A DNA stretch of 64,000 nucleotides from Thalassotalea psychrophila (GTDB lineage Bacteria > Pseudomonadota > Gammaproteobacteria > Enterobacterales > Alteromonadaceae), in the NCBI RefSeq assembly GCF_031583595.1, contig NZ_CP134145.1:4712001-4776000 (forward strand), written 5' to 3'. The notes beneath the pieces were generated by a model that was not told where the DNA came from, made no database searches, and saw nothing but the letters and a program-made list of their open reading frames with translations. Below are positions 39,129-57,535 of this stretch, piece after piece; positions within the stretch are counted from its first letter, which is position 1; each line of letters opens with the position of its first letter. The translations under genes were made by a program, and so were the position numbers.

Positions 39129-39213
39129 ATATAACGCCACTTTAAGCAGCTTAATATAGCTGGCTAAAATATTGAGGTACGAAAACAGCCAACTGTTTAA
39201 ATTCTTGTTAGCT
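39129..39213 (-). repeat. attC of cassette C32
   Basis: From ATATAAC to GTTAGCT, 85 bp. The R'' GTTAGCT exactly partners the 5' end of C32 (AGCTAAC at 39881), so the unit is confirmed although its gene has lost its start codon. The gene's stop codon lies in the R''. Confidence 0.88.
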
Positions 39214-39864
39214 ACTTTTTTCATTTATCCATTGTTTTACAGGAACTACCCATTCAGAAATAGGCCTATAAAAAGCACCATGTTCTTTACCTGTCGAAAT
39301 AGAAATTTCGTCAAATGAGGTTAATTTTGGGCTTCGATTTTTGAGTGTTTCACATGTACTTGCATCGTCGGTTGTTTCATAAACAGATAAAAAAGCACCG
39401 TTCATTTTAATATCTGCATATTTAGTTGAGACGATCCGCCCACAACCAGCTAAAAGAACGGTATTAACAGGTGTATCCTCCAAATAATGGGAAGTTAAAC
39501 TCGTAATAAACGCTCCGCGAGAGAACCCCATAATAGTAATGCTCTTGGCAGCTACACCGCTTTTTATTAATTTTCTAACATCTTTAGCTAACAATTTGGC
39601 ATGAACGAAAGGATCTGTTCCTTTAGGACGATGATAAGCAATCAAACTATATTCACTATCTGCTAAAGATTCCTTTATTGCTGGAAACTCATACACTCCC
39701 CACCTTTCATTTTTAGGTGTAGGGTTAGTACCTTCAACAATAAAACCATGGGAATAAAAAACATACTTTTCATTTTCATTAATTTGTTCAGGAAATTTTT
39801 CGTATACCTCTCCGGCATAGGATAATGATGAAAAAAGAAAACATACTAATACTGAAAATTTGAT
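39208..39864 (-). pseudogene. Exported alpha/beta-hydrolase with lost start codon, cassette C32
   Basis: The open frame from 39208 reaches to 39864 (about 218 residues) and encodes a signal peptide (KFSVLVCFLFSSLSYA), an HGFIVEG oxyanion-like segment, a nucleophile elbow ITIMGFSRGAFITSL and a late KEHGAFYRP histidine. AGGAGA sits 6 nt upstream of the codon where ATG is expected, but that codon is ATC (plus-strand 39862-39864). No ATG, GTG or TTG occurs in frame until GTG at 39696, which would delete the signal peptide and N-terminal strand. A point mutation in the start codon is the simplest reading; weak initiation at ATC is possible. Confidence 0.7.
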
Positions 39865-39880
39865 ACTGACTCTCCTGAGT

Positions 39881-39982
39881 AGCTAACGCCCTCGTTAAAG
39901 GGCAAGAATACCGTTGACTAAAATATTGAATAGAGCAAAAACAGCCAACTGCATTTTGTCCCGCTTGAACTGCTTGATATGA
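39881..39982 (-). repeat. attC of cassette C31 with mutated R'' core
   Basis: From AGCTAAC to GATATGA. The body is a normal attC but the R'' GTT is replaced by GAT, so it no longer pairs fully. Confidence 0.75.
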
Positions 39983-39997
39983 GTACCAACTCAACAC

Positions 39998-40420
39998 CTA
40001 TGCTTCTTGAGGATATGCTTGCCCTTCATCTTGATTTGAAGCAGGTGAGGAAGCATGTCTATGTAGCCATACCCACCTATCTGTTTTTCTTAATGCCACA
40101 CTCCAACGAATTGGAATTTCTAATTTACTTCCCTGATATTCAAGATGAATTGCTAACGAAATGGCAACTACAGCATAATCATTTGAAATAGTAACTTTTG
40201 ACCATTGCCATTCAAACTGATTTGCAGTGGCCTCAGCAAAGTTTCTAAGGAACAATTCCTTAACAGAGCTTCTTCCTATACAAAGTTCATCCGCTCCTGT
40301 ACCAATGACAGAAATATCATCGCAGTCCTCAAAAACATGCATTAAGGCATCAATATCTTTAGTACAATATGCTTTTGCATAATCTTCTAAAGTGGATTTT
40401 ATTTCTTGCTCGTCAGTCAT
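39998..40420 (-). CDS. SnoaL-like/DUF4440 nuclear transport factor 2-fold protein, cassette C31
   Basis: A 140-residue NTF2-like protein (LEDYAKAYCTKDIDALMHVF, VVAISLAIHLEYQGSKLEIP, RWSVALRKTDRWVWLHRHAS). This fold is used by ketosteroid isomerases, polyketide cyclases and many orphan enzymes; no catalytic pair can be assigned. AAAGGTGTAAC precedes the ATG. Flanking attC sites are both damaged, so the cassette is probably immobile. Confidence 0.78.
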   Translation of the reverse strand: MTDEQEIKSTLEDYAKAYCTKDIDALMHVFEDCDDISVIGTGADELCIGRSSVKELFLRNFAEATANQFEWQWSKVTISNDYAVVAISLAIHLEYQGSKLEIPIRWSVALRKTDRWVWLHRHASSPASNQDEGQAYPQEA

Positions 40421-40494
40421 GTTACACCTTTAGCCAATTTTGATTGCAGGATACGAAGTACTTTTCACTATAAACCATTCTATTAATTAAAGAT

Positions 40495-40531
40495 AAACTG
40501 TTAGCAGTCCCGCTTTAAATTCTTATTAGCC
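40495..40531 (-). repeat. Half attC of cassette C30
   Basis: AACTGTTAGCAGTCCCGCTT and TAAATTCTTATTAGCC match the right half of the common attC type, but the core GTT is ATT and the left half is missing between 40421 and 40494. Confidence 0.75.
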
Positions 40532-40534
40532 GTT

Positions 40535-41038
40535 TTATGAAAAAGCCTTATGGTACTCAATATTTCCGTTTGGCATGTCGCCACTTAAAAGTAATGATAG
40601 AAAATACTCTGGTGGAACTCCTTTGAATACTAACCCCTCAAACGCTTTAAAACCGAATCGGTTATAATATTCAGGCTCTCCGAGCAGCACGCACCCTTTA
40701 GCATTTAACTCACCAATAACATTTAAACCTGAAAGTATTAATTGTGAGCCCACACCTTGATTTTGGTATTCAGCTTTAACAGAAACGGGAGCTAAACCAT
40801 ACCATTGGATGAATTCATTATTTATTTTAACTTTAGAAAAGGCTATATGACCTACAACCACATTATTAACTTCTGCAACTAAAGATACGGAAAGAGCATT
40901 ATCATCGCGTAATCTAGCGACTATTTCATGCTCAGTTTGGTTACTGTGAGGATGGTTTTTGAAGGCTTCAATAGTAATTTTTTCAATATCATTAATATCG
41001 TCAATACGTTCTGGTCGAATATTTATATTATGAGTCAT
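40535..41038 (-). CDS. GNAT N-acetyltransferase, YhbS-like, cassette C30
   Basis: A 167-residue acetyltransferase of the YhbS type (LAPVSVKAEYQNQGVGSQLI, LLGEPEYYNRFGFKAFEGLV, PPEYFLSLLLSGDMPNGNIE). AGGATTAGTGT precedes the start. The acceptor is unknown. YhbS-like enzymes mostly act on small metabolites or peptides. Its attC has lost its left half, and the gene's stop lies just beyond the remnant. Confidence 0.85.
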   Translation of the reverse strand: MTHNINIRPERIDDINDIEKITIEAFKNHPHSNQTEHEIVARLRDDNALSVSLVAEVNNVVVGHIAFSKVKINNEFIQWYGLAPVSVKAEYQNQGVGSQLILSGLNVIGELNAKGCVLLGEPEYYNRFGFKAFEGLVFKGVPPEYFLSLLLSGDMPNGNIEYHKAFS

Positions 41039-41040
41039 AC

Positions 41041-41125
41041 ACTAATCCTAGGAAATAAGGGGCAAAATGTGAAGCGAGCTGAACCAGACAACTGTAATTT
41101 GTCCCACTTGAACAGCTTGTTATGT
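41041..41125 (-). repeat. Degenerate attC of cassette C29
   Basis: The R'' GTTATGT and the right stem are intact, but the left half is shortened (AATAAGGGGC runs straight into AAAATGTGAAGCG) and no RYYYAAC core is left. Confidence 0.7.
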
Positions 41126-41455
41126 TTTTGTTCTGGGTATATCTATTAATGGTTCTGCTAAGATATTGCCGTTTCCCGCAGTAATTGTAGCCATTAATTC
41201 ATAGTGAAATTTATCAATTGGATGCTCCAATTTCATTGAAATTTCGAATACTCGTTTAATTGATTTAGCACGCAAATACCATAGGAGGTATTTACTGCCT
41301 TCTATGTCTACTTTAAACCAAGACTCTATTTGAACTTCTTCATTTTGCAAAGTTGCTGCTGCTTCATTTAGCCGGGAAGAAATAGTGTCTTTCCACTCTT
41401 CAACTTTATCCTCAGTTCCAGGTTTAAGTTTAATTAATCCCGATGCGTATTCCAT
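41120..41455 (-). CDS. DUF6176-like protein, cassette C29
   Basis: A 111-residue protein (GLIKLKPGTEDKVEEWKDTI, ESWFKVDIEGSKYLLWYLRA) that resembles DUF6176, a ferredoxin-like dimeric fold family without known function. GAG lies a few bases upstream of the ATG. The stop codon lies in the R'' of its attC. Confidence 0.65.
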   Translation of the reverse strand: MEYASGLIKLKPGTEDKVEEWKDTISSRLNEAAATLQNEEVQIESWFKVDIEGSKYLLWYLRAKSIKRVFEISMKLEHPIDKFHYELMATITAGNGNILAEPLIDIPRTKT

Positions 41456-41473
41456 ACTCTAAACTCTCGAAAA

Positions 41474-41573
41474 ACATAAACGCCTCATTAAGAGGCTAAA
41501 AAAAATTGTTTAAAACAAGCGACGAAGGTGCAAAAAATTAACTGTTTTTGTCCTTTTGAATAACTTGTTATCA
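41474..41573 (-). repeat. attC of cassette C28 with extra A in the R' core
   Basis: From ACATAAAC to GTTATCA. The left core is ACATAAC with one added A compared with the expected partner of C29's R'' (GTTATGT). Confidence 0.8.
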
Positions 41574-41574
41574 A

Positions 41575-41883
41575 CTAATTATCCTTGACCAAATTATACT
41601 TAAAAGAACTAAATCCACTCAATTGAAAATACAAAGCTGGCAACATAAAAGCAAGAAACAAAATATCTGACCAGCTACCTTCCAAATAACGATCAATTAA
41701 TAAAATAACAATAAATATACCATTGCCTATCAACATCTTGGATTGTGATTTTTTGTCCGTAACTATATTTGATGAACAATGCGGGCATTTAAAAGGAGGT
41801 GTAATTAATGATAAAAAATTAGACACTTTAAATCGCTGCAAAAATTTAATTTTGTTTTTACACGCAGGACATTGAGTATTCAT
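41575..41883 (-). CDS. Zinc-ribbon membrane protein, cassette C28
   Basis: A 102-residue protein with an N-terminal zinc ribbon made of two CxxC knuckles (CPACKNKIKF and FKCPHCSSNIV) and two C-terminal membrane helices (MLIGNGIFIVILLIDRYLEG and ILFLAFMLPALYFQL). GGAAAGTAT precedes the ATG. Function unknown. The same ribbon-plus-helices plan is seen in cassette C1. Confidence 0.7.
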   Translation of the reverse strand: MNTQCPACKNKIKFLQRFKVSNFLSLITPPFKCPHCSSNIVTDKKSQSKMLIGNGIFIVILLIDRYLEGSWSDILFLAFMLPALYFQLSGFSSFKYNLVKDN

Positions 41884-41898
41884 ATACTTTCCATAGTT

Positions 41899-41998
41899 GT
41901 ATAACGCCGTATTAAGGGGCTTATATTCGTTGGCTAAAATGTATAGCGGAGCGGAACCTAGCCAACGGTTAAAGTCCTGTTTGAACAGTTTGTTATGT
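41899..41998 (-). repeat. attC of cassette C27
   Basis: From GTATAAC to GTTATGT, 100 bp, with the CGGAGCGGAACC variant of the common stem. Confidence 0.9.
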
Positions 41999-42008
41999 GT
42001 TTTTTTAG

Positions 42009-42428
42009 TTAAGGGGAATCATTTCTCTTTACAAACTTATAGCCAAGATACGCCATGGGTAAGTATGCACCAATTAAATCCAATGAATTAAACCAAATTG
42101 GCGACGGCAGACTAATAACCATAGCTATACCTCCTGCAAGAAATGCTACGCCAATAACAAATGCAATTATTAATTTGTGAGTCACCGCAACTTTTGCAGC
42201 GAAAACAGCACCTGCCAATGTTCCTAAAGAGTGTGCAAGAAACGGAAAAACAAAGTGTTTTGGCATGAATAAAGGCATAGCTTTCTCTAGCCCTTCCATT
42301 GTTGACACATCTGCACCAGCAGGTGGAGGAACTATCTCTCCACCTAGTGATATTAGTCCCATATTTACTACGCTACCTAAAACGAGCCCTCCTAATATTG
42401 CAATAGAATTTAGAATAATAGACTTCAT
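42009..42428 (-). CDS. Polytopic membrane protein, cassette C27
   Basis: A 139-residue protein with four helices (IILNSIAILGGLVLGSVVNM, FVFPFLAHSLGTLAGAVFAA, LIIAFVIGVAFLAGGIAMVI, FNSLDLIGAYLPMAYLGY). The start at 42428 (MKSIILN) has GAGGAG 7 nt upstream; the longer frame begins inside the neighbouring attC and is rejected. No known function. Confidence 0.75.
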   Translation of the reverse strand: MKSIILNSIAILGGLVLGSVVNMGLISLGGEIVPPPAGADVSTMEGLEKAMPLFMPKHFVFPFLAHSLGTLAGAVFAAKVAVTHKLIIAFVIGVAFLAGGIAMVISLPSPIWFNSLDLIGAYLPMAYLGYKFVKRNDSP

Positions 42429-42449
42429 TTTAACTCCTCCATCTGAAAC

Positions 42450-42549
42450 GCATAACGCCACATTAAGCGGCTATTTGTAGTTGGCTAAGATAAGTAAGGC
42501 ACGATCAAAAAGCCAACTGTAAATTGTCCGGGTGAATGCCTTGTTATGT
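42450..42549 (-). repeat. attC of cassette C26
   Basis: From GCATAAC to GTTATGT. The R'' exactly partners the 5' end of C26 (ACATAAC at 42957). The stop codon of the DUF3703 gene lies in the R''. Confidence 0.92.
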
Positions 42550-42891
42550 TTCACTTTCACTCAGTATTTTCTTTAAATCTTCTGGAACAGACATAGGTTT
42601 CATCGGATTAACGTTGGCTCCGCCCGTATTACCTAGGGGAACCCAAATTCTAGAAAATATTACTGAAGCTATCATCCTCGTTACCTGACCAAGTACTTCT
42701 TTAATATTTCGCTTCTTGATACCAACTTTTAACATCCACCAATGGGATTTAGTATGGGGGATGATATAGCTCTGACCAAGAATGTGAGCACGTTCAAGGT
42801 GATGAAAAGAGTCTTCAAACTCATTTAACTTATAAAAGCGAATCGCCTCACCCAACTCTAAATTGTACGCTGCTTTAAGTTTTGTTCGCAT
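42544..42891 (-). CDS. DUF3703 protein, cassette C26
   Basis: A 115-residue protein of family DUF3703 (LGEAIRFYKLNEFEDSFHHL, HILGQSYIIPHTKSHWWMLK, PLGNTGGANVNPMKPMSVPE). Members are small cytosolic helical proteins of unknown function, frequent in integron arrays and mercury or metal islands. The ribosome binding site is weak. Confidence 0.82.
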   Translation of the reverse strand: MRTKLKAAYNLELGEAIRFYKLNEFEDSFHHLERAHILGQSYIIPHTKSHWWMLKVGIKKRNIKEVLGQVTRMIASVIFSRIWVPLGNTGGANVNPMKPMSVPEDLKKILSESET

Positions 42892-42956
42892 TAGACGCTC
42901 ACTGTATTCCGGTCGAAAGTAATAAAATTATAAAGTGCTTCACACTTCGCGTGCAA

Positions 42957-43057
42957 ACATAACGCCCCAATAAGGGGTTATTAATAGTTTGCTAAAATAT
43001 GGAGCGAAGCGGAACCGAGCCAACTGTTACGAGCCCTGCTTGAGCAACTTGTTAGAG
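42957..43057 (-). repeat. attC of cassette C25 (metallo-beta-lactamase cassette)
   Basis: From ACATAAC to GTTAGAG, the common array type (GGAGCGAAGCGGAACCGAGC). The R'' GTTAGAG exactly partners the 5' end of C25 (CTCTAAC at 43773). The last nine codons and stop of the gene lie inside it. Confidence 0.92.
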
Positions 43058-43761
43058 GCTACACCTAAAGCAAGTTTTGCTGTATGTTTAAGTAAATTTA
43101 TATCACCGACCTTACCATGTCCCGGTACAACGATCTCAATATTCGGGTATTTATTAATTACTTTTTGAATTGAAGCAGGCCATTTATTTATTGAAGCATC
43201 TTCAGTATTGCCTAAATTTTTACTGTTCATACTTTTGACAAAACACCCTCCAAATAAAATATTACTCTTTGGAAGCCAAACAACAATATTATCCTCTGTA
43301 TGACCAGGGCCAGGATAATAGATTTCGATAGTACCTTTAACTAACTCAAATGTAGTACTAGGGATTTCATTACTAGATTGTTCTCTATGTTTTAAATTAA
43401 GTAGGTTATTAGTTTGGGAAGTCGCATATGTTTTTATCTTGGATTTATTAAGAAACGGTATTCCACCGCTAGCATCTTCATGAAAATGAGTAACAATACT
43501 ACTTTTAGCAATGAGACCTTTTGACCTTATCCAGTTGATTAGTTTTTCTGTCTCTTCTTGTGTCCAAGGCGTATCAATAATGTGAGCATTCTTTCCATCA
43601 ACAACAATTAAACCAGATGCCCCAACCATTCCCCAAGGTTTAATGTTTTTATAAGAAATATGTTGGTATAGATTATCAGCTAATTTTGTGATTTTTAATT
43701 GTTCATCACTAGCAGAAGCAGTCCCTGAAATTAACAACAAAAAGGTGATGATGAATCTCAT
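43027..43761 (-). CDS. Subclass B1 metallo-beta-lactamase, cassette C25
   Basis: A 244-residue exported enzyme with a signal peptide (MRFIITFLLLISGTASA) and a full B1 zinc site: H92, H94 and D96 in THFHEDASGG, H154 in YPGPGHTEDN, C173 in LFGGCFVKS and H215 in VVPGHGKVGD. K176 and N185 match the substrate-binding Lys224 and Asn233 of standard numbering. The YYPGPGHTEDNIVVWLPKSN and LFGGCFVKS stretches most resemble IMP-type enzymes. It should hydrolyse beta-lactams in the periplasm, possibly carbapenems; activity is not shown. The attC core supplies an AGAGG ahead of the ATG, and the C-terminal SNKLLKQGS is encoded by its attC. Confidence 0.93.
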   Translation of the reverse strand: MRFIITFLLLISGTASASDEQLKITKLADNLYQHISYKNIKPWGMVGASGLIVVDGKNAHIIDTPWTQEETEKLINWIRSKGLIAKSSIVTHFHEDASGGIPFLNKSKIKTYATSQTNNLLNLKHREQSSNEIPSTTFELVKGTIEIYYPGPGHTEDNIVVWLPKSNILFGGCFVKSMNSKNLGNTEDASINKWPASIQKVINKYPNIEIVVPGHGKVGDINLLKHTAKLALGVASNKLLKQGS

Positions 43762-43772
43762 ACTTTAGAGGC

Positions 43773-43871
43773 CTCTAACACCTCGCTAAGAGGCAAGTAA
43801 TTGTTGGCTAAATAAGCGACCTAGGAACAAATAGCCAACTGTTATTTGTCCTTTTGAATGACTAGTTAGCG
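43773..43871 (-). repeat. attC of cassette C24
   Basis: From CTCTAAC to GTTAGCG, with GGAACAAATAGCCAACTG in the centre. The base before the R'' differs (TAGTTAGC instead of TTGTTAGC). Confidence 0.88.
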
Positions 43872-44321
43872 AGTAAAATCAACCAACATTGCCACTTTTT
43901 CAATACCGTGAGATGGCGTCCACTTTTTAAATTCAACAAAACCATATTTTTTATATAACTCTATTGCAGGTAAGTTTACAGCAGCGGTTTCTACAATCGC
44001 TTGCGAAAAATCAATGGAGTCTAGGATGTGGCCTATCAATCTACTTGCAATACCTTTCCTAAAATACTTTGGATCAACGGTTAAACTATTAATTTCTAGG
44101 TGTTGATTTTCTATAGCAATCTCTATTACTGCAGCAATACATTCATTTTCAATAAAGCCATAAAATTGTGTCTCTGAGTTTTCTATATCTTTAATACTTC
44201 GCAGAAGCGGAGGGAAATCGAGAGTCCCTATTAGTTGAGCTTCAATTTTATAAGAGCGCTGAAAAACAGTAAAAATCTGATTTGCTACTTCTCCATTCGA
44301 ATTTTCAAGTTTTGTGATCAT
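43866..44321 (-). CDS. GNAT N-acetyltransferase, cassette C24
   Basis: A 151-residue acetyltransferase with motif A LTVDPKYFRKGIASRLIGHI and the C-terminal IELYKKYGFVEFKKW. AGGCGTAGT precedes the ATG. Substrate unknown. Its neighbour C23 encodes a second, only distantly similar GNAT. Confidence 0.85.
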   Translation of the reverse strand: MITKLENSNGEVANQIFTVFQRSYKIEAQLIGTLDFPPLLRSIKDIENSETQFYGFIENECIAAVIEIAIENQHLEINSLTVDPKYFRKGIASRLIGHILDSIDFSQAIVETAAVNLPAIELYKKYGFVEFKKWTPSHGIEKVAMLVDFTR

Positions 44322-44351
44322 ACTACGCCTAGGTTCAAAATTTGTAATGCT

Positions 44352-44451
44352 ATCTAACGCCTCGTTAAGAGGAAATAAAATAGCTGGCTTAAATTAGCAA
44401 AAAAGGAGCAAAAACCAACTGTTATTTGTCCTTTTAAGTGACTTGTTAGAT
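44352..44451 (-). repeat. attC of cassette C23
   Basis: From ATCTAAC to GTTAGAT, 100 bp, of the AAAAAGGAGCAAAAACCAAC type. Confidence 0.92.
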
Positions 44452-44455
44452 GAAT

Positions 44456-44914
44456 TTATTCCTTCACCATATACAAACAATTTTTCAATGGAATTTCTTC
44501 TGGATAATCAGCAATAGAAAAGCCAAGTTTTGTATAAGCTTGAATTGCACTTTCGTTATGTCCTAATACAAATAGTGAGCATGACTTAGCTCTTAAATCC
44601 GATCTCCCCAAAATACTCAATTGCTTTATTAAGTGAGAAGCGATGCCCTTCCCGCGAAGATTAGGATTAACAACTAGCCTTCCAAGATGGCACATCCCAA
44701 GCCTTAAATAATATTGTCCAAATGCCAAAAATTCACCTTCGTTAGAAATTAACGAGAATGATTTCAAAGTATCAAGTTTTAAGTCAGCCTTAAAAGAGCT
44801 TAAATCGAATGGATATCTAAAATTTGGACCAGACCAAAGATTTAATTCATCTTCGTTTGAAAACCAAGACATCAATTCAATAAAATTTTCATCTGAAGTT
44901 TGAGTTAAACGCAT
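44456..44914 (-). CDS. GNAT N-acetyltransferase, cassette C23
   Basis: A 152-residue acetyltransferase with motif A LVVNPNLRGKGIASHLIKQL and C-terminal AIQAYTKLGFSIADYPEEIP. I start at the ATG at 44914 (MRLTQTSDE): TTAGGTG of the attC core lies right upstream, so the recombination site seems to supply the ribosome binding site. A GTG two codons earlier is possible. Substrate unknown. Confidence 0.85.
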   Translation of the reverse strand: MRLTQTSDENFIELMSWFSNEDELNLWSGPNFRYPFDLSSFKADLKLDTLKSFSLISNEGEFLAFGQYYLRLGMCHLGRLVVNPNLRGKGIASHLIKQLSILGRSDLRAKSCSLFVLGHNESAIQAYTKLGFSIADYPEEIPLKNCLYMVKE

Positions 44915-44918
44915 ATTC

Positions 44919-45036
44919 ACCTAACGCCAGTTTCAGCCGCGCCAAAAAGCGGCGCACCGTGTGAGTAAAACGGGATCTTGCGACCTTCATACAAAGATGC
45001 ATAGCTTTTGGTGTTAGCTGCAAACACTTGTTAGGC
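44919..45036 (-). repeat. attC of cassette C22, divergent type
   Basis: From ACCTAAC to GTTAGGC, 118 bp, with a GC-rich loop (GCCGCGCCAAAAAGCGGCGC) unlike the other array sites. R'' partners the 5' end of C22 (GCCTAAC at 45684) exactly. Probably a recently captured cassette. Confidence 0.88.
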
Positions 45037-45669
45037 ACCAGAAAATGAAAAGGTCAGCCAGGTCGAAGTATCGGTATCTACGGCTTTCTCGGGGAAAAAG
45101 AATGCTTGCGAGTCCCCTTCGTGATTGATCGCACTCACACTAATCATCATTTTCCAAATATTGCCCGAAAATTTCTTGCGTAGTACTTGAATTTCCCTAT
45201 GTGAACCCTTCAAGAATTTAGGGCGTCTTCCCTTTTCGGTTTCTTCATACCCTGCATAAGGCACCCAGAAACCACCCCAATCTTTGAGATTCCACCGTTC
45301 AGGCTGACCCCATTCTTTATCAATGAGCAATTTTTCACTAAGCTGAGCAGAAGCATGAAGATTGTGAAGATTGCCAGTTTCGGCATTTTCTATGTAAAGA
45401 TCAATAACCGCGTAGTCTTCGGCTTTACCTTTGGCGCAAACAAATAAAGAACCTTTGTCATGCATGAGATAAATTGAAGCCCCTGCCGGTAATTCGATCT
45501 TCTGCGCTGCTCCCCATTCACTTTTTCCGCAACTACCATCAAAAAGTGGCGCACTGATGGTTAAGCCTATAGAGATGGGCTTAGACGTAGGAACTTCTTC
45601 GGCCGCGATTAACACATGACTTAACAAAGTACACACTAGAAAAGTGATATTTCTTTGAATGCTTCTCAT
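45031..45669 (-). CDS. Exported protein, cassette C22
   Basis: A 212-residue protein with a signal peptide (RNITFLVCTLLSHVLIAAEE) and a beta-rich domain (GLTISAPLFDGSCGKSEWGA, SIYLMHDKGSLFVCAKGKAE, WMKFSFSG-like end) that may be a carbohydrate-binding DOMON/CBM9-like fold. That fold call is a guess from the GxCxxxEW and MHDKGSLFVCAK pattern. A strong AGGAGG site precedes the ATG. Its stop lies in the R'' of its attC. Confidence 0.65.
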   Translation of the reverse strand: MRSIQRNITFLVCTLLSHVLIAAEEVPTSKPISIGLTISAPLFDGSCGKSEWGAAQKIELPAGASIYLMHDKGSLFVCAKGKAEDYAVIDLYIENAETGNLHNLHASAQLSEKLLIDKEWGQPERWNLKDWGGFWVPYAGYEETEKGRRPKFLKGSHREIQVLRKKFSGNIWKMMISVSAINHEGDSQAFFFPEKAVDTDTSTWLTFSFSGA

Positions 45670-45683
45670 AATTTCCTCCTGAT

Positions 45684-45782
45684 GCCTAACGCCTTGCTAA
45701 GTGGCGTAAAATAGTTAGCTAAAATTTGCGAGACACGAGCACCAACCAACTGTTTGGCGTCCTTTTGAGCAACTTGTTAGCT
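45684..45782 (-). repeat. attC of cassette C21
   Basis: From GCCTAAC to GTTAGCT. The R'' exactly partners the 5' end of C21 (AGCTAAC at 46232). Confidence 0.92.
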
Positions 45783-45794
45783 GCATGCTTAAAA

Positions 45795-46196
45795 TTAACT
45801 ACCGAAAGCCTCTAGGTGTTGAATACCATTATCGCCAATTTCATCCCAGTTAGCTTTCGAGCCTACCCAAATATGGTGAGTAATTTTTAAGTATCCATTG
45901 TCATTAGGCAATAGGCCAGCTGGAATGTACATCCGAGCACTATCATTTTTTCCAGGCAAATTTGAGCCACAATTAGTACAAAAACTAGTTTGCCAGTCAT
46001 GGTTAGGTTTAAACCACGTTTTAATATACTTTTCACCTTTAATCCAACGGAAGTTCTCGTTGTTAGTTACTACCACAGCAATGCCATTTGCTCCAGTAGC
46101 ACTACGACATATGGAGCAATGACAAAAATAGACGTCTGTTATTTGATTGGTGATTTCAAAGGCTATTTCACCACAGTTGCACTTTCCTAAAGTCAT
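45795..46196 (-). CDS. GFA-family zinc protein, cassette C21
   Basis: A 133-residue GFA-fold protein with zinc ligands in GKCNCGEIAFEI, YFCHCSICRSATGANG and SFCTNCGSNLPGKN. GAGG precedes the ATG. Probably binds a small thiol adduct; the substrate is unknown. One of three GFA genes in the window; this one lies closest to the family found in marine Alteromonadales. Confidence 0.85.
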   Translation of the reverse strand: MTLGKCNCGEIAFEITNQITDVYFCHCSICRSATGANGIAVVVTNNENFRWIKGEKYIKTWFKPNHDWQTSFCTNCGSNLPGKNDSARMYIPAGLLPNDNGYLKITHHIWVGSKANWDEIGDNGIQHLEAFGS

Positions 46197-46231
46197 TTAT
46201 ACCTCGGAGAATTATCAATATATACTTTTAC

Positions 46232-46331
46232 AGCTAACGCCTTACTAAACGGCAAATAATATTGGCATGTACTTTTGCGTTTTGCAAAAATCATGACGAT
46301 GTTATTTGTCATATTTATTAACTTGTTAGGA
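46232..46331 (-). repeat. attC of cassette C20, divergent type
   Basis: From AGCTAAC to GTTAGGA, with a GCATGTACTTTTGCG centre not seen elsewhere in the array. The pairing with the 5' end of C20 (GTCTAAC) is imperfect (5 of 7). Confidence 0.82.
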
Positions 46332-46772
46332 ATTTTTTACACTTAATTGTGACCAAGACTGAAAAGTACCAACGGCATATAACGTCCCAATAATTAAACA
46401 AATCCCCGAACTGACAAACCAAAAAGTTAAAGTGTTTTCAGGAAACATTGGCATTATGGCCACAAATGCTACACCTCGAAGTAAGTAAATTAGAGAAATA
46501 ACAATCAGTCCTAATCTAAGAAGCGGAAGCCGAAATATAACTTTTGAGCCAGAAAGCGCATAGAGAGACCACACAGACAGAATCAAAACAATAATTGATG
46601 TAACGACAGTTGGATACCAATGTCCATCTTCGGCCATTCTTGCCATTTGTTCGCCAGCACCAAAAAAACGATACCAGTCACCACCGAAAATGATACACCC
46701 CAAGTGAGCTATAGCAGCAAGAGCGCTACAAATAGAACCGATAATTAAATATTTATTATTACCTGAGTGCAC
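46326..46772 (-). CDS. Polytopic membrane protein, cassette C20
   Basis: A 148-residue protein with four helices (YLIIGSICSALAAIAHLGCI, VVTSIIVLILSVWSLYAL, LGLIVISLIYLLRGVAFVAI, FWFVSSGICLIIGTLYAVG). The GDWYRFFGAGEQMARMAEDG loop recurs in small membrane proteins of gammaproteobacteria; function unknown. It starts with GTG after AGGGAAG. Confidence 0.7.
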   Translation of the reverse strand: MHSGNNKYLIIGSICSALAAIAHLGCIIFGGDWYRFFGAGEQMARMAEDGHWYPTVVTSIIVLILSVWSLYALSGSKVIFRLPLLRLGLIVISLIYLLRGVAFVAIMPMFPENTLTFWFVSSGICLIIGTLYAVGTFQSWSQLSVKNS

Positions 46773-46787
46773 GATACTTCCCTAATT

Positions 46788-46889
46788 GTCTAACGCCTAG
46801 TTAAGGAGCTGATAATGTTTAGCTAAACTTGTGTAGCGAAGCGGAACCGACCCAAACTTTAGCAGTACCGCTTTAAATGCTTGTTATGT
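46788..46889 (-). repeat. attC of cassette C19
   Basis: From GTCTAAC to GTTATGT, common type (GTAGCGAAGCGGAACCGACC). Confidence 0.9.
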
Positions 46890-46900
46890 TGAACTAAACG

Positions 46901-47146
46901 CTAACCCATTAACTTTAATGCAATATACGGTGTTAAATTTAAAAGTAATATGCCTATTTTATAATTACCCAAAAATTGAAAATACATGTTTGGTAACTCT
47001 GAAGATTCAACACCTACAATTTTACTATGAAGGTTAATGGTGAAACTTTTAAATACGAAAATGAAAAATGCTGAAAATAAATATACGCCCAAATTTATTA
47101 CAGTACACCAACCGAAAAAAGTAGTAAGTTCATTTACACCGAGCAT
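46901..47146 (-). CDS. Small membrane protein, cassette C19
   Basis: An 81-residue protein with two helices (TVINLGVYLFSAFFIFVF and KIGILLLNLTPYIALKLMG) and a short soluble loop. GGAG precedes the ATG. The pattern LGVYLFSAFFIFVFKSF resembles the DUF6868 type of small membrane proteins. Function unknown. Confidence 0.65.
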   Translation of the reverse strand: MLGVNELTTFFGWCTVINLGVYLFSAFFIFVFKSFTINLHSKIVGVESSELPNMYFQFLGNYKIGILLLNLTPYIALKLMG

Positions 47147-47173
47147 AATTTATAACTCCATAAGTTTGGTTCT

Positions 47174-47275
47174 GCATAACGCCCATTTAAAAGGCTGATA
47201 ATAGTTTGCTAAAATTGTGTACCGAAGCGAAACCGAACCAACTGATAGCAATCCCGCTTGAATGGCTTGTTATAT
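47174..47275 (-). repeat. attC of cassette C18
   Basis: From GCATAAC to GTTATAT, common type. The R'' exactly partners the 5' end of C18 (ATATAAC at 47695). Confidence 0.92.
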
Positions 47276-47280
47276 GTAAA

Positions 47281-47679
47281 TTACTCTTCAACTTGCCAAT
47301 TGGATGGAAAGCTTACCCACTGACATTTATTCGAGTTATTAAGTGTATAGGCTGGCTCTAAAATTTCGGAAGCTGCAAAACAACCTCCTGCGATACCGAT
47401 ATAATCAGGCATCGTTGATATAGTCCAATACAAAGTTGTACCACAACTAGAACAAAAATAGCGCTTTTGTTCGTGATTTTGCTCTTGGTGCCATAGTGTA
47501 TAAATTCTTGTATCACCTGACATATTTAATACTGCATCTGTTTTAAAATAAGTAGATATTCCAAATGCACTTCCCGTACGTTGCTTACAGTTTGTACAAT
47601 GACAAACTGAATTCATTTCAGGTTGAGCTGAAACAGTGATAGAAACCTGTTTACAACAGCATGTAGCCTCTAGTGTCAC
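47281..47679 (-). CDS. GFA-family zinc protein, cassette C18
   Basis: A 132-residue GFA protein with zinc ligands in ATCCCKQVSI, SVCHCTNCKQRTGSAFG and YFCSSCGTTLYW. It starts with GTG after AAGGAAAG. It is more distant from the C21 protein than typical recent duplicates, so the two cassettes were likely gained separately. Confidence 0.85.
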   Translation of the reverse strand: MTLEATCCCKQVSITVSAQPEMNSVCHCTNCKQRTGSAFGISTYFKTDAVLNMSGDTRIYTLWHQEQNHEQKRYFCSSCGTTLYWTISTMPDYIGIAGGCFAASEILEPAYTLNNSNKCQWVSFPSNWQVEE

Positions 47680-47694
47680 AAAACTTTCCTTTGT

Positions 47695-47792
47695 ATATAA
47701 CTCCCTGTTAAGGGCAAATTGTATTTGGTTAAAATAAGCGACGAAGGAGCAAAAACCAACTGTTATTTGTCCTTTTGAGTGACTTGTTATTC
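47695..47792 (-). repeat. attC of cassette C17
   Basis: From ATATAAC to GTTATTC, of the CGACGAAGGAGCAAAAACCA type shared with C6 and C23. Confidence 0.9.
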
Positions 47793-47793
47793 A

Positions 47794-48183
47794 TCAAGAT
47801 TGTACTACTGCATCAACTTCTATTTCGATTAGCCATTCTGGGTTAATAAATTTACTAACTTCCATTACTGTATCGACAGGAAGAATATCTTTGAAATATT
47901 CACCTCTCACCTCAGCAACCTCTTTCCAGTTATCAATATTAGTAAGTAGCATACGAGTTCGCACAACATCATTTAGTGTGGCACCAGCTTCTTTAAGCGC
48001 AATCTCAATAATTTTTATACATTGTCTTGTTTGAGCAGCAGCATCATTAACACCAACAGTTTTTCCATTGTCATCAATAGGGGCAGTTCCTCCAACAGAG
48101 ATAAAATTACCGACTTTAACTGCTCGAGAAAAACCTAATTTAGAAGCATAGGGACTTGTACTCGAAACTAGAACACGGTTCAT
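47794..48183 (-). CDS. RidA/YjgF/YER057c family protein, cassette C17
   Basis: A 129-residue RidA-family protein (STSPYASKLGFSRAVKVGNF, GTAPIDDNGKTVGVNDAAAQ, NDVVRTRMLLTNIDNWKEVA, YFKDILPVDTVMEVSKFINP). The Arg in VRTRML is the usual anionic ligand contact. True RidA enzymes deaminate reactive enamines/imines; this paralogue lacks proof of that role. I start at 48183 (MNRVLVSSTS) because AAGGAG lies 5 nt upstream; the longer frame runs into the attC. Confidence 0.85.
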   Translation of the reverse strand: MNRVLVSSTSPYASKLGFSRAVKVGNFISVGGTAPIDDNGKTVGVNDAAAQTRQCIKIIEIALKEAGATLNDVVRTRMLLTNIDNWKEVAEVRGEYFKDILPVDTVMEVSKFINPEWLIEIEVDAVVQS

Positions 48184-48197
48184 AACGACTCCTTGAT

Positions 48198-48299
48198 GTA
48201 TAACGCCCAAAATAAGGGGCTGATAATAGTTTGCTAAATTGTATAGCGTAACGGAACCGAGCAAACTGTTAGCAGTCCGGCTTTAAATGCTTGTTATGA
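48198..48299 (-). repeat. attC of cassette C16
   Basis: From GTATAAC to GTTATGA, common type; pairing with the 5' end of C16 (GCATAAC) is 6 of 7. Confidence 0.9.
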
Positions 48300-48313
48300 C
48301 GAACTCTACTTTG

Positions 48314-48886
48314 CTAAGGTTTTTCTTCGTTAACAAGCATGTTCATGAATTTTGTAAATCGCCTAAGTCTGGTTTCAGGCTTCTTGGCACTTATCAATCC
48401 ATATGCAATAGCGGAACGACTTGATTTATTAAGTGTTGCATAAAATTCTTTAACAATCAGATTAATCTCTAGGGCAGCTAGAAAATCTGAGGGAACTTCC
48501 ATTTCACTTACCACATAGGCATTTTCCCAACGACCATCGGCTTTTGCTTCACGAATATGTACAAGCCCAGATTCCATTATTCGGTCTTCACTAATCAAGC
48601 GTTCCACATGCTTTGTGTTTCTTTTAGACCAGTTGCTTCGTGTTTTTCTGGGAGTTATACGTTGAAGATAAGATTGATCATCGATTGATTTTTTAACACC
48701 ATCTATCCAGCCCCAACATAAAGATTCAATCACGACATCATCCCAAGTAATGCTCTTAATTCCACTATTTTTTTTATATAACTTTATCCATAATTCACTT
48801 TCAGAGGCGTGATTCATCTTAAGCCACTGACCAAGATCTGTCGATATTTCAAATGTCATGATACTTAATAGATCAGGCTCAGGCAT
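48314..48886 (-). CDS. YdeI/OmpD-associated family protein, cassette C16
   Basis: A 190-residue protein of the YdeI/OmpD-associated family (ELWIKLYKKNSGIKSITWDD, ESLCWGWIDGVKKSIDDQSY, RITPRKTRSNWSKRNTKHVE). Family members have been linked to resistance to antimicrobial peptides or bacteriocin-like stress, without a known mechanism. The start at 48886 is accepted; an internal ATG at 48859 has no better ribosome binding site. Confidence 0.85.
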   Translation of the reverse strand: MPEPDLLSIMTFEISTDLGQWLKMNHASESELWIKLYKKNSGIKSITWDDVVIESLCWGWIDGVKKSIDDQSYLQRITPRKTRSNWSKRNTKHVERLISEDRIMESGLVHIREAKADGRWENAYVVSEMEVPSDFLAALEINLIVKEFYATLNKSSRSAIAYGLISAKKPETRLRRFTKFMNMLVNEEKP

Positions 48887-48904
48887 CTAGTTAAACTCTT
48901 TTCG

Positions 48905-49005
48905 GCATAACGCCCTGTTAAGGGGCTGATAATAGTTTGCTAAAATGTGTAGCGAAGCGAAACCGAGCAAACTGTTAGCAGTCCCACTTTAAATTCTTGT
49001 TAGGC
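48905..49005 (-). repeat. attC of cassette C15
   Basis: From GCATAAC to GTTAGGC, common type. The R'' exactly partners the 5' end of C15 (GCCTAAC at 49432). Confidence 0.93.
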
Positions 49006-49416
49006 TTTTTGAGCAACAACCTTTTTAAAAACTAGAAATATTATTAATAGATACACGATAGTAGCGATATGCTTAGCAACAACTTTAAATGGAGCTTGAG
49101 CTTCATATGCAAGTAGCCCGTCTGTAATTGGCATAACAACAGCAAATAAAGCCCCCCACATTAAAACAATATGATTTCGAGTAAATAAAAGATAACCAAA
49201 AATCAGGGTAATAAAAATAGTGCGTGATCCATATATTTTCACCCAATCAGCATCCATACCAGAAAAAAGTTCAGTGCCTCTTACTGTAGAAAAGGCGGCA
49301 GGATCAATGAATGAAAAAGTACCATAAAATCCCTGTAACAAAACTATAAGTGAAACTAATACAAAACCTACTTTTTCTAATTTAGTAATTTTATTCGTCA
49401 TAATATCCGTTTTCAT
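49000..49416 (-). CDS. Small polytopic membrane protein, cassette C15
   Basis: A 138-residue protein with four helices (VGFVLVSLIVLLQGFYGTF, YGSRTIFITLIFGYLLF, HIVLMWGALFAVVMPITDGL, IATIVYLLIIFLVFKKV). The VKIYGSRTIFITLIFG segment recalls DUF4267. Start either at 49416 or at the internal ATG 49401 (MTNKITKLEK). Its stop lies in the attC R''. Function unknown. Confidence 0.7.
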   Translation of the reverse strand: MKTDIMTNKITKLEKVGFVLVSLIVLLQGFYGTFSFIDPAAFSTVRGTELFSGMDADWVKIYGSRTIFITLIFGYLLFTRNHIVLMWGALFAVVMPITDGLLAYEAQAPFKVVAKHIATIVYLLIIFLVFKKVVAQKA

Positions 49417-49431
49417 CTGAATTATAGGAAA

Positions 49432-49534
49432 GCCTAACGCCCCAATAAGGGGCTAATAATGCTTGGCTAAACTTGTGTTGCAGAGCGAAACTGAGCCAAG
49501 CTTTAGCAGTCCCGCCTTAATTGGCTTGTTATAT
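49432..49534 (-). repeat. attC of cassette C14
   Basis: From GCCTAAC to GTTATAT. The R'' exactly partners the 5' end of C14 (ATATAAC at 50061). Confidence 0.92.
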
Positions 49535-50035
49535 CTCGCCTCTAAAATCCAATTGATAGATGTCTACATTGAAACCTTGAATTTCAGATGATTTTTTAAA
49601 TAAAAAGCCAGCTCTTTTAGCCACTTTAAGAGAAGGTATGTTTTCAGGATCTATTAAAGCTGAAATATCCTTTAATTTTAATTGTTGTTTGCAAAATTCA
49701 GCTACAGCAATTGTTGCTTCTGAAGCAAAACCTTTCCCTTGTTGAGAGGAAGCTAACCTATAGCTAACATGCAGTAAATCATTGCTTTCAACTACATGTA
49801 AATTTAGTCCGCAAACACCAACAAAACTAGCATCTAATTTTGAAAACATAGCCCATTGGCCAAACCCCTTAGTACGGTATTGTTGTTGGCAATTATCTAT
49901 ATATTTTTGTATTTCACTATCATTGTGAACACCAACTATTGAATATTTCATAACTTCAGGGTCAGACAAAACAAGTCGCAAATCAATTGAGTCTTTTGAA
50001 TTGATTTCACGAATTTCTAATCTATCAGTCTCCAT
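49529..50035 (-). CDS. GNAT N-acetyltransferase, RimJ/RimL type, cassette C14
   Basis: A 168-residue acetyltransferase of the RimJ/RimL subgroup (METDRLEIREINSKDSIDLR, VSYRLASSQQGKGFASEATI, DISALIDPENIPSLKVAKRA). The start at 50035 is chosen; the longer frame reaches into the attC. RimJ/L-like enzymes acetylate protein N-termini, amino acids or drugs; the target here is not known. Confidence 0.82.
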   Translation of the reverse strand: METDRLEIREINSKDSIDLRLVLSDPEVMKYSIVGVHNDSEIQKYIDNCQQQYRTKGFGQWAMFSKLDASFVGVCGLNLHVVESNDLLHVSYRLASSQQGKGFASEATIAVAEFCKQQLKLKDISALIDPENIPSLKVAKRAGFLFKKSSEIQGFNVDIYQLDFRGEI

Positions 50036-50060
50036 GACACTCAAAATATAATCCTTAGAG

Positions 50061-50159
50061 ATATAACGCTTACATAAGCTGAAATTTATAGCCAACTATA
50101 ATGTTTGAGGAACGAAAAACAGCCAACTGTAAATGTTCCGTTTAATGTTCTTGTTATGA
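50061..50159 (-). repeat. attC of cassette C13
   Basis: From ATATAAC to GTTATGA, with the AGGAACGAAAAACAGCCAAC variant also seen in C9 and C32. Confidence 0.9.
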
Positions 50160-50179
50160 GAAAATAAATGGTACATGGG

Positions 50180-51205
50180 TTAAGTTTTTTGAGCACACCC
50201 ATCTAAGTTGCTTACTCCATTTTTTCGCCACATACGGTCGAAAATAATCATGGATACAAAAGCTAAAAATAAGAATAAGCCCATTTGTTCAGAAAAAGGA
50301 ATGAGTCTCGGTGAGCTATTCATAGCTGTATGCAGTAAAACAACCATCAGAAGGTTTCCTCCTGTGCGATTGTAAAGCCAAGTAAAAATAATCCCCAACA
50401 TAACACAAGCCCCTGCTTTAGCAAAAACCATTTCAGGTGGATCGCTATATTGGCCAATAACAAATAAAGGAAAATGCCATAGGCCCCAGATTAGACCAAG
50501 AAATACAGAGCTCAAAAGTGGACTAAAACTCGCCTGTAGGCGTGGTAACATCCAAGCTCGCCAGCCAGACTCTTCACCAATAGCGACCACTAAAAAAGTT
50601 AATAATATTGAACGTGTTGTATATAAAATCCAAGTTTGCAAGTCTAAACCGTGGTGAGAAATTTCTACAGGGTTTCCCGTCATGTATGCCATGAACAGTC
50701 CTAGTAACATCCATGTCGCGGGTAACAGCAAGGCGATCAACCACCACTTAATAGATATACGCCACTGGCTTATTGAATTTAGAGCATTTGACCGACTAAC
50801 GACTAAAGATGCTATTACAAAGCCCCCAACCCCAGCAGAAACTATTGAACCTAATACTCCAGTAAATGTAATGCCAACTGGTTTAGCCGTAGAAAATTTT
50901 TCTGCTGTAATAGCATCGCCTGTAATCAATATTGAGAAATACAATCCAAACAGTAAAATGGAAAAAAAACTAAAACAGAACCACCACTTTCTATTGCCAA
51001 TATTGGCTCCTGGACCGCATAAGTGATTTAGAAAAATTGCTGCTAATGCAGGGCCAAAACCGGCTCCAACTAGTATACGTCCAAGTGCCCAATTTGATCC
51101 TGCAAAAAACGGAACACAAAACCAAACAGCCCATGTGATGCCTACACTAATTAGCGTAAAAGATAAAATCGGATATCGCTCTGAACACTCTTTCAACCAA
51201 TTCAT
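50180..51205 (-). CDS. CPBP-family intramembrane metalloprotease-like protein, cassette C13
   Basis: A 341-residue polytopic protein with the three motifs of the CPBP (CAAX-protease and bacteriocin-processing) family: GEESGWRAWMLPRL near residue 211, WGLWHFPLF near 242 and LLHTAMN near 294. The catalytic Glu pair and both His are present, so it is probably an active intramembrane protease. In bacteria such proteins process or give immunity to bacteriocins, or act in other membrane functions. AAAGGAATAACTA precedes the ATG. It is one of the largest cassettes. Confidence 0.85.
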   Translation of the reverse strand: MNWLKECSERYPILSFTLISVGITWAVWFCVPFFAGSNWALGRILVGAGFGPALAAIFLNHLCGPGANIGNRKWWFCFSFFSILLFGLYFSILITGDAITAEKFSTAKPVGITFTGVLGSIVSAGVGGFVIASLVVSRSNALNSISQWRISIKWWLIALLLPATWMLLGLFMAYMTGNPVEISHHGLDLQTWILYTTRSILLTFLVVAIGEESGWRAWMLPRLQASFSPLLSSVFLGLIWGLWHFPLFVIGQYSDPPEMVFAKAGACVMLGIIFTWLYNRTGGNLLMVVLLHTAMNSSPRLIPFSEQMGLFLFLAFVSMIIFDRMWRKNGVSNLDGCAQKT

Positions 51206-51244
51206 TAGTTATTCCTTTGGGGATGCTCCCTCAACTACGATTTC

Positions 51245-51346
51245 GCATAACGCCCTGTTAAGAGGCTGATAATAGTTTGCTAAAATGTGTAGCGAAGCGG
51301 AACCGAGCAAACTGTTAGCAGTCCCATCTTAATTGGCTTGTTAGGC
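51245..51346 (-). repeat. attC of cassette C12
   Basis: From GCATAAC to GTTAGGC, common type. The R'' exactly partners the 5' end of C12 (GCCTAAC at 52083). Confidence 0.93.
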
Positions 51347-51370
51347 ATATATACACCTAGCTGATTATTA

Positions 51371-52060
51371 TTAAATTCTTACACCATTTACAAAACTGCA
51401 ATTAGGAAAGAAAGGATAATGATCTACGGGCTTAAGCTCAATAATATTTACTTTACTTACTTTATCAGATTCAACTTTTTGTTCAATTTCAAAGTAAAAC
51501 CACCAACGTTCGTTAAATGATGTTAATTCTATATAAGGATAACTTCTTATTTTCCAACTACCTTTGAGATGATCTTTTCGTTCGTTAGTTTTGTTGAGAA
51601 AAGTCAGTTGATAAGTATTATCTTTGTTTAAACGAAGGTTCACTAAAGTATCGCAATTTCGGCTTTCGTAATCATTAGCCAGATCTTGATTAGCAATTTT
51701 ATCTTTTTGTTTGACTCCTTCTGGGAGTATAAACAAACCAACACTATCTTTGCTATACCAATGATTCCCTGATACAAGCGCTTCTACGTTAGGGATAGCC
51801 CAACCTAAATCAGAAAGTGAATTTATTAATATATCTAGAGTTTTATCACCCTTAATAAATGGCGAATAAAGCAGAGTTGATTGGTTAATTGTTTCAGGAA
51901 AAGAGAGTGTATTAGTAATAACTTTAAAGTTAGACTCATCCAGTTTTGAACTGATTTTTTCAATTTCAGTATCTGATAAATAACGCGTATATAAATGAAC
52001 TTCTGTAGAAGAACAAGCAACAAGAGAAATACTAAGTATTACAACACTCAAAAACTTCAT
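51371..52060 (-). CDS. Lipoprotein of unknown function, cassette C12
   Basis: A 229-residue protein with a lipoprotein signal (MKFLSVVILSISLVACSSTE, lipobox LVAC). The body (KVITNTLSFPETINQSTLLY, ILINSLSDLGWAIPNVEALV, VNLRLNKDNTYQLTFLNKTN) suggests two small alpha/beta domains; the second looks like a lipocalin-type strand pair but I cannot name it. GGAGGGATGCGATTTA precedes the ATG. Confidence 0.7.
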   Translation of the reverse strand: MKFLSVVILSISLVACSSTEVHLYTRYLSDTEIEKISSKLDESNFKVITNTLSFPETINQSTLLYSPFIKGDKTLDILINSLSDLGWAIPNVEALVSGNHWYSKDSVGLFILPEGVKQKDKIANQDLANDYESRNCDTLVNLRLNKDNTYQLTFLNKTNERKDHLKGSWKIRSYPYIELTSFNERWWFYFEIEQKVESDKVSKVNIIELKPVDHYPFFPNCSFVNGVRI

Positions 52061-52082
52061 TAAATCGCATCCCTCCGTATAT

Positions 52083-52183
52083 GCCTAACGCCCTGTTAAG
52101 AGGCTGATAATAGTTTGCTAAAATGTGAAGCGAAGCGAAACCGAGAAAACTGTTAGCAGTCCCGCTTTAAATTCTTGTTATGC
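52083..52183 (-). repeat. attC of cassette C11
   Basis: From GCCTAAC to GTTATGC, common type. The R'' exactly partners the 5' end of C11 (GCATAAC at 52558). Confidence 0.93.
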
Positions 52184-52188
52184 GTAAA

Positions 52189-52539
52189 CTACTCTCCGCC
52201 ACCGCCGCCATCACCACCAAAATCTCCACCAGTGCCATCGTCTCCGCCACTATAATATGAAGAACCGAAAAGCGCCCCAAAAATCCCTATTCCTGATACG
52301 GAAGTAATTGTATTGCTCATTGATTCGGTAGATTCATTATCAGGGGTATTGGCTTTGGAAGTCGCAACGTCGCAATACATTAAATATGCGTAATGTATAT
52401 GCCTTTTATCAAAGCCCATTTCATCTATGGTTTTATCAACTTGACCTTTTGTGTAAGTTGCTGAGCCGCCATACCTTTTAGCTAATGCAGGGCGAAGTTT
52501 GTACTTATACTTTCTAATAGTCGACTTTTTACCAAACAT
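52189..52539 (-). CDS. DUF6559-like protein with glycine-rich tail, cassette C11
   Basis: A 116-residue protein (start MFGKKSTIRKYK at 52539, AAAAGGAG upstream; the longer frame begins inside the attC). Basic N-terminus (RKYKYKLRPALAKRYGGSAT), a HIHYAYLMYCDVA segment as in DUF6559, a short hydrophobic patch and a Gly/Asp-rich C-terminus (GGDDGTGGDFGGDGGGGGE). Function unknown. Confidence 0.72.
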   Translation of the reverse strand: MFGKKSTIRKYKYKLRPALAKRYGGSATYTKGQVDKTIDEMGFDKRHIHYAYLMYCDVATSKANTPDNESTESMSNTITSVSGIGIFGALFGSSYYSGGDDGTGGDFGGDGGGGGE

Positions 52540-52557
52540 TGATAAAACTCCTTTTAC

Positions 52558-52657
52558 GCATAACGCCCATTTAAGGGGCAAATAAGGCTTGGCTTAAATC
52601 GGGCACGCAGTGACAAAGACCAAGCTTTATTTGTCCTGTTTTAGTGCCTTGTTAGGT
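52558..52657 (-). repeat. attC of cassette C10
   Basis: From GCATAAC to GTTAGGT, of the CACGCAGTGACAAAGACCAA type shared with C1. The R'' exactly partners the 5' end of C10 (ACCTAAC at 52983). Confidence 0.92.
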
Positions 52658-52960: not shown

Positions 52961-52982
52961 ATTGGATTTCAACTCCCTTTAC

Positions 52983-53080
52983 ACCTAACGCCCTGTTAAC
53001 GGGCTAAGTAAAGCTGGCTAAAATAGTTGAGGCACGAAACACAGCCAGCTTTATGTGTTACGTTAAACAGCTTGTTAGTT
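52983..53080 (-). repeat. attC of the ORF-less cassette C9
   Basis: From ACCTAAC to GTTAGTT, AGGCACGAAACACAGCCAGC type. The R'' exactly partners the 5' end of C9 (AACTAAC at 53285), so C9 is a genuine separate cassette. Confidence 0.92.
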
Positions 53081-53284: not shown

Positions 53285-53359
53285 AACTAACGCATTAATA
53301 ACCGGCTAATATTTTCTGTGTCCGGCGCTGAAGGCGCGTAGTTGATTGATTTGTTATAC
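53285..53359 (-). repeat. attC of cassette C8, short divergent type
   Basis: From AACTAAC to GTTATAC, only 75 bp, with a GTCCGGCGCTGAAGGCGCG centre. The R'' exactly partners the 5' end of C8 (GTATAAC at 54343). Confidence 0.9.
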
Positions 53360-53367
53360 GTCGGCAC

Positions 53368-57531: not shown

Positions 57532-57535
57532 GCCA

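Follow-up and report, generated by a model that had tools for sequence, protein, structure and literature searches.

A VMB-like subclass B1 metallo-beta-lactamase gene in the cassette array of a Thalassotalea psychrophila chromosomal integron

VMB-1 is a carbapenem-resistance enzyme that occurs on plasmids in Vibrio from seafood. Two sources describe it as a Vibrio enzyme encoded in an integron of an IncC plasmid (PMC12238668; PMC9604146), and one of these, a review, counts it among the carbapenemases (PMC9604146). AMM-1 of Alteromonas mangrovi is a marine chromosomal B1 enzyme that its description assigns, alongside IMP-1 and VMB-1, to the B1.2 branch; it shares 36.6% identity with VMB-1 and is reported without adjacent mobile elements; going by that description, the enzyme discussed here resembles it in being a marine chromosomal B1 enzyme (PMC12238668). 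IMP-type enzymes are likewise of subclass B1 and cassette-borne, but the attCs that follow them are unlike the one described here (24.2 bits after IMP-6 and 20.4 bits after IMP-68).

For most resistance cassettes of mobile integrons the source is, to our knowledge, unknown. In one study of attC origins 27% of 108 resistance cassettes were assigned to three taxa, with Alteromonadales not among them, although an Alteromonadales model was included; in the parts of that study consulted VMB is not mentioned (PMC8352920). A search by title and abstract returned no paper on metallo-beta-lactamase (MBL) cassettes in Alteromonadales chromosomal integrons, within a coverage that did not extend to the original reports of VMB-1, VMB-2 and VAM-1, so that prior notice is possible.

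The window analysed here is a stretch of 64,000 nucleotides from Thalassotalea psychrophila, positions 4712001-4776000 of a single 4,806,223-base contig. Its MBL gene probably encodes an exported di-zinc B1 beta-lactamase of the VMB lineage, at cassette position 22 to 25 in a chromosomal integron and of a lineage one branch of which was captured as VMB-1.

The enzyme, its cassette and the array

The MBL gene occupies 43027..43761 on the minus strand, starts with ATG and encodes a product of 244 residues. The NCBIfam model for subclass B1 metallo-beta-lactamases, NF033088, gives the protein 268.6 bits (cut-off 200). Its highest-scoring family model is the NCBI VMB model NF038184 at 364 bits, and since the cut-off of 500 is missed, the enzyme is a VMB-like relative and no named VMB allele. 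VMB-1 is also its top match among solved structures (E 3.8e-99). The initial annotation, which had the reading frame right, noted IMP-like stretches in the protein; a likeness to IMP is not supported in that form, as VMB-1, at 63% identity, is closer than any other mobile enzyme and the IMP enzymes listed reach 43-48%, and the IMP family model NF012147 gives 237.5 bits where its cut-off is 460.

The zinc ligands H92, H94, D96, H154, C173 and H215 are constant across 23 aligned sequences (the window protein and 22 homologues). K176 is almost constant in this alignment, in which N185 of the window protein is also identified, bearing out the six ligands and the Lys224 and Asn233 equivalents that had been proposed. 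We take H92, H94 and H154 to be H116, H118 and H196 of the standard B1 numbering, D96, C173 and H215 to be D120, C221 and H263, and K176 and N185 to occupy the Lys224 and Asn233 positions. At the latter VMB-1 has a tyrosine, whereas the window enzyme has the asparagine. The N-terminus resembles a signal peptide (residues 1-17, 43711..43761, minus strand, with cleavage after TASA as judged by eye) and the protein is therefore probably exported.

Compared with three near cassette genes, those of G004, Catenovulum and the Colwelliaceae MAG locus L021, the window gene has a dN/dS of 0.12-0.14 at a dS of 0.84-1.12. This is strong purifying selection, as expected of a working enzyme, and the gene probably encodes a zinc-dependent, antibiotic-destroying enzyme whose activity, hydrolysis and spectrum are predictions from its sequence. 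Strong purifying selection in marine bacteria without known carbapenem exposure would also suit a B1-fold hydrolase that is retained for some other purpose and has weak or no beta-lactamase activity. The presence of all six ligands together with K176 and N185 speaks against such a hydrolase, as does the 63% identity to an enzyme listed as a carbapenemase in a review (PMC9604146), and we regard it as improbable.

The whole gene cassette comprises 816 nt, from TTAGAGGCC to ...GGGGCG (42963..43778, minus strand), as set by its attC boundaries. The attC at its 3' end (42957..43057, minus strand) is of the common array type and scores 77.8 bits on a covariance model from which it was held out. The attC of the preceding cassette (43773..43871, minus strand; 83.3 bits) ends 11 nt ahead of the MBL ATG. 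By Pfam the preceding cassette (43866..44321, minus strand) encodes a GNAT acetyltransferase, and the next one (42544..42891, minus strand) encodes a DUF3703 protein (PF12487, 134.3 bits). The MBL cassette thus has the layout of an integron cassette, with a single gene and a single attC, bounded by attCs and in the orientation of the array. The ten C-terminal residues, ASNKLLKQGS, are encoded within attC sequence (GCC TCT AAC AAG ..., 43030..43059, minus strand), and the stop codon, too, is supplied by the cassette's own attC.

A DUF3703-like gene also follows the MBL cassette of Glaciecola sp. KUL10 (L027:2639-3040). A shared pair of cassettes was considered and set aside as chance, given 38% identity between this gene and that of the window (42544-42891) and the occurrence of DUF3703 in 21 of 59 genomes of the family. 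Two further proteins of the metallo-beta-lactamase superfamily are encoded in or near the array, at window positions 33428-34402, where no B1 model exceeds its cut-off, and at 53368-54306, which was examined with Pfam only.

The integron integrase IntI is a full-length protein of 321 aa encoded on the plus strand (60913..61878) that matches TIGR02249 over positions 1-315 of 315 with 458.7 bits (cut-off 265). It is oriented away from a series of cassettes on the minus strand, an array at 39129..60360 that is defined by covariance model and repeats and holds 27 strong attC matches (56.9 bits or more) as well as weaker ones. An integrase diverging from the array, similar attCs and a chromosomal location mark this as a sedentary chromosomal integron. 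The strict attC pattern RYYYAAC ... GTTRRRY finds few sites because many sites in the window read CATAAC or TATAAC, and a looser pattern gives false positives outside the array, for which reason a covariance model was adopted. It was built from 24 window attCs, the MBL attC excluded. On this model the MBL attC ranks 19th of the 27 strong matches, and 24 of the 26 others were members of the model. The model is biased towards the attC type of the window array, from which it derives, and cassettes with other attC types may therefore go undetected.

The stretch between IntI and the MBL cassette contains 21 strong attCs and at most three weak ones, which puts the MBL cassette in position 22 to 25 of the array, at a distance of about 17 kb from IntI. 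A promoter scan of 42400-44500 gave no site in the 11-nt gap and four sites in total, against a shuffle mean of 7.3. Two forms of a LexA-like site, one sought over 60251-61000 and the other over the whole window, were not found. The gene would be kept in store as a cassette, distant from the integron promoter, with no space for its own promoter and presumably silent in place. It would act if it were read from upstream cassettes or relocated next to attI.

The VMB clade and the marine counterparts of VMB-1

The phylogeny was built from B1 enzymes, without B2 or B3. The 71-protein tree has the window protein inside a clade of 28 rows that includes VMB-1 and VAM-1 (support 99/90), and the same clade is recovered with support of 98/99 in a 69-row tree from which NDM-1 and one long-branched row were removed. 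The unrooted tree places the window protein among VMB, GIM, DIM, TMB, KHM and IMP, with VIM and NDM apart on long branches. The nearest rows are a cassette gene of the same genus (G004, 79%), Catenovulum maritimum (76%), a Colwellia MAG (75%) and a Colwelliaceae MAG (74%); the fork uniting the window protein with three of these is weak (83/23). Together with NF033088, this position agrees with the subclass B1 of the initial annotation, which had also recognised a cassette of a chromosomal integron, as confirmed by the flanking attCs, the integrase and the 4.8 Mb contig.

Some loci were dropped before the protein set was made, namely the duplicates L006, L008, L011 and L013, and L010 with L078, a two-piece match to one gene; L015 and L080 were removed before the trees. 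The 65 named loci include 23 that are absent from the context listing, of which ten joined the protein set and nine the 71-protein tree. The attC model was run against each of the 65, but not against the plasmid loci of IMP-1, VIM-1 and NDM-1.

An attC match at the 3' end of the gene is found in 13 of the 28 clade rows, two of these matches being weak (L005, 24.7 bits, and L032, 24.2 bits; E below 0.1). The other 15 rows have no 3' attC detected by the model, and five of them (L019, L022, L025, L033 and L035) still show remains of a cassette or have a 5' attC. On the 69-row tree the cassette label clusters, with nine changes against a shuffled mean of 17.6 and no shuffle as low among 500, a clustering that is helped by near-copies in the tree. 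This test set cassettes against all other rows, minus NDM-1 and the long-branched row; an earlier one, of cassettes against five relics only, showed no clustering, all 500 shuffles being as low. An integrase close to the MBL gene is seen only for the window and for G008, and at the other clade loci the array may lack an integrase or continue on another contig. The cassettes of G004, C. maritimum and the Colwelliaceae MAG GY13CL_bin.17 resemble that of the window in having a 3' attC each and encode proteins 74-79% identical to the window protein. They differ from it in that their proteins are seven residues shorter and their attC bodies only 57-70% like the window's.

VMB-1, as carried by the IncC plasmid pVb1796 of Vibrio alginolyticus, shares with the window enzyme its B1 clade and its cassette ends (TTAGAGGCC ... 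GCCTCTAACAAG), and its attC is of the same type as the window's, scoring 81.0 bits on the window model. The attC of blaPSE in the same plasmid integron reaches 39.7 bits, and none of seven other plasmid B1 loci (VAM-1, TMB-1, DIM-1, GIM-1, KHM-1, IMP-6 and IMP-68) gives an attC match over 30.5 bits. The VMB-1 cassette is 69.7% identical to that of the window (599/859). It differs in standing first in its array, where promoter-driven expression would be expected, and in adjoining a different integrase. That plasmid integrase is at most 65% identical to the other integrases compared and 45% identical to IntI1. The gene for it (L084:2661-3629) occurs at 99% or more in eight plasmid records from Vibrio, Providencia and Marinobacter.

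The VMB-1 cassette is 95.0% identical (793/835) to a cassette of Alteromonadaceae bacterium Bs31 and 92.7% identical (774/835) to one of Glaciecola sp. KUL10, and the protein of each is 94.4% identical to VMB-1. Like the window cassette, both occur in cassette form in genome contigs, with the same ends and in the same clade, although their proteins are only 62-63% identical to that of the window. In both genomes the integrase sits on a contig other than that of the MBL gene (93,427 vs 285,174 bases in Bs31; 435,920 vs 878,284 in KUL10), and both loci count as cassette arrays whose integrase is seen only elsewhere in the genome. The Bs31 locus has a row of ORFs with regular gaps, which supports an array. 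The VMB-like attC of Bs31 scores 73.7 bits, against 20-34 bits for seven other matches at the same locus, which belong to a different attC type and several of which are weak (E up to 0.48), and by this contrast the VMB-like cassette looks like a guest there. The collected attC closest to that of VMB-1 (97% in the interior) follows a GNAT cassette in G119, which is probably a Moritella since its integrase is 81% identical to that of M. viscosa.

The clade looks like a lineage of cassettes in marine integrons from which VMB-1 was drawn. Given 94.4% identity of VMB-1 to the Bs31 and KUL10 proteins and 63% to that of the window, the window gene is not its direct source. An environmental origin of mobile carbapenemases, suggested at first for the window gene, is thus plausible for the cassette lineage and does not hold for this copy.

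GIM-1 and related enzymes have possible cassette relatives of their own. G005, a genome of the same genus inferred to be Thalassotalea ponticola, carries a B1 gene (L017 / L127) that is 74.6% identical to GIM-1 and lies near three strong attC matches, while the integron integrase matches near it are split into several pieces. A short attC-like remnant in G005 was rejected as kin of the GIM-1 attC, as its 40/60 matching positions only equal the best of 2000 random stretches. The 3' end of L056, a B1 gene outside the clade from the Gammaproteobacteria MAG OFTM154, agrees with the GIM-1 attC at 45/58 positions (0.78), compared with at most 0.67 among 2000 random stretches. L056 may be a further relative of the GIM/DIM enzymes in cassette form.

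Probably inherited ends, diverging attCs and mobility

The leader TTAGAGG is found at 13 of 28 clade loci and at none of 173 other attC junctions, a count based on 186 attCs from which five without a readable R' were omitted and eight preceding MBL genes were tallied apart. Outside the clade it occurs at one of 32 B1 loci, that of TMB-1. Among the window attC junctions read, it is unique to the MBL cassette, so that the cassette ends have most likely come down together with the gene. The stop codon lies inside the same R'' (GGC CTC TAA C) in G008, Catenovulum and the Colwelliaceae MAG locus L021, and the proteins are seven residues shorter. VMB-1, TMB-1, DIM-1 and GIM-1 have attC-derived C-terminal tails with ASNK, a hint of an even earlier cassette state. 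Such tails (window 43030-43059; L084, L086, L087 and L088) are a possible fossil of cassette history.

The attC bodies diverge widely even among sister MBL genes. Those of L030, L034, L032 and L004 have coding sequences that are 85-91% identical and attC interiors that are 46-73% alike. For L030 and L034 the values are 91% and 58%, the median of random attC pairs being 0.64. Whether attC bodies have been swapped between sister cassettes is left open; most pairs fit fast neutral change, and the attC of L034 is decayed.

AttCs scoring at least 70 bits on the window model also occur in integron arrays outside the family, in five others of the same order, and the best matches to the MBL attC reach 0.79 outside the window against 0.78 in its own array. 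The MBL attC was accordingly rejected as proof of residence, the same type being present in the arrays of several families. The attC had initially been described as of the common array type and not imported; its rank among the strong matches upholds the first part, while the second does not follow. Import from an array of the same attC type is possible, and the MBL cassette may be a recent guest from another marine integron, a reading that we place somewhat below an even chance. Besides the shared attC type, a recent import would account for a B1 homologue (E 1e-20) in only five of 14 other genomes of the genus, at 45-78% identity, for a leader unlike those of its neighbours, and for the guest-like VMB cassette of Bs31. 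It sits less well with the absence of any copy more than 83% identical to the window protein among the best 120 of 653 homologues listed, and with an attC body whose type is common in its own array.

The bottom strand of the MBL attC folds no better than its shuffles (z 0.04; of 200 shuffles, 91 are as stable), and the window copy may therefore be hard to excise. In a set-wide comparison its z of 0.37 ranks 27th of 27, the poorest fold in the window. The attC of the preceding GNAT cassette folds well (z -3.89 and -2.65 in two runs), as does that of VMB-1 (z -3.5 and -3.9). The MBL cassette may thus be poorly mobile now. It may even be stranded altogether, its attC having decayed so that excision is inefficient and the gene has in effect become an ordinary chromosomal one, which we hold less likely than not. 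The clade offers precedents for such a fate in L022 and L035, among other relics in which traces of a decayed attC survive. The conserved attC ends TAACAAG and GGCGTTA are intact, however. Weak folding is also shared by three of 11 other MBL attCs (L030, L031 and L032; z -0.85 to -0.05) and by 22 of 174 non-MBL attCs (z above -0.5), and fold energy is only a proxy.

A probable cassette lineage of marine integrons

We lean, with some reserve, towards the view that VMB-like MBLs are an old cassette lineage of the chromosomal integrons of marine Alteromonadales, in which the ends are specific to the gene and the attC bodies diverge freely, which has moved between the arrays of different families and of which VMB-1 is a recent capture. 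The lineage has probably existed as an integron cassette with its gene-specific ends and been transferred among the arrays of different marine bacteria, and one of its branches has probably been captured by a plasmid integron to give VMB-1. By family the window enzyme is an ordinary B1 enzyme; it is useful as a tie between a plasmid carbapenemase and marine integron cassettes.

If this is true, a mobile carbapenemase cassette is traceable to resident chromosomal arrays. One carbapenemase lineage is seen as array cassettes, as a probable guest cassette, as relics and as a plasmid copy, with whole-cassette identity of up to 95%. Together these forms open the step from chromosomal integron to plasmid to direct study, and the lineage points to where surveillance could look.
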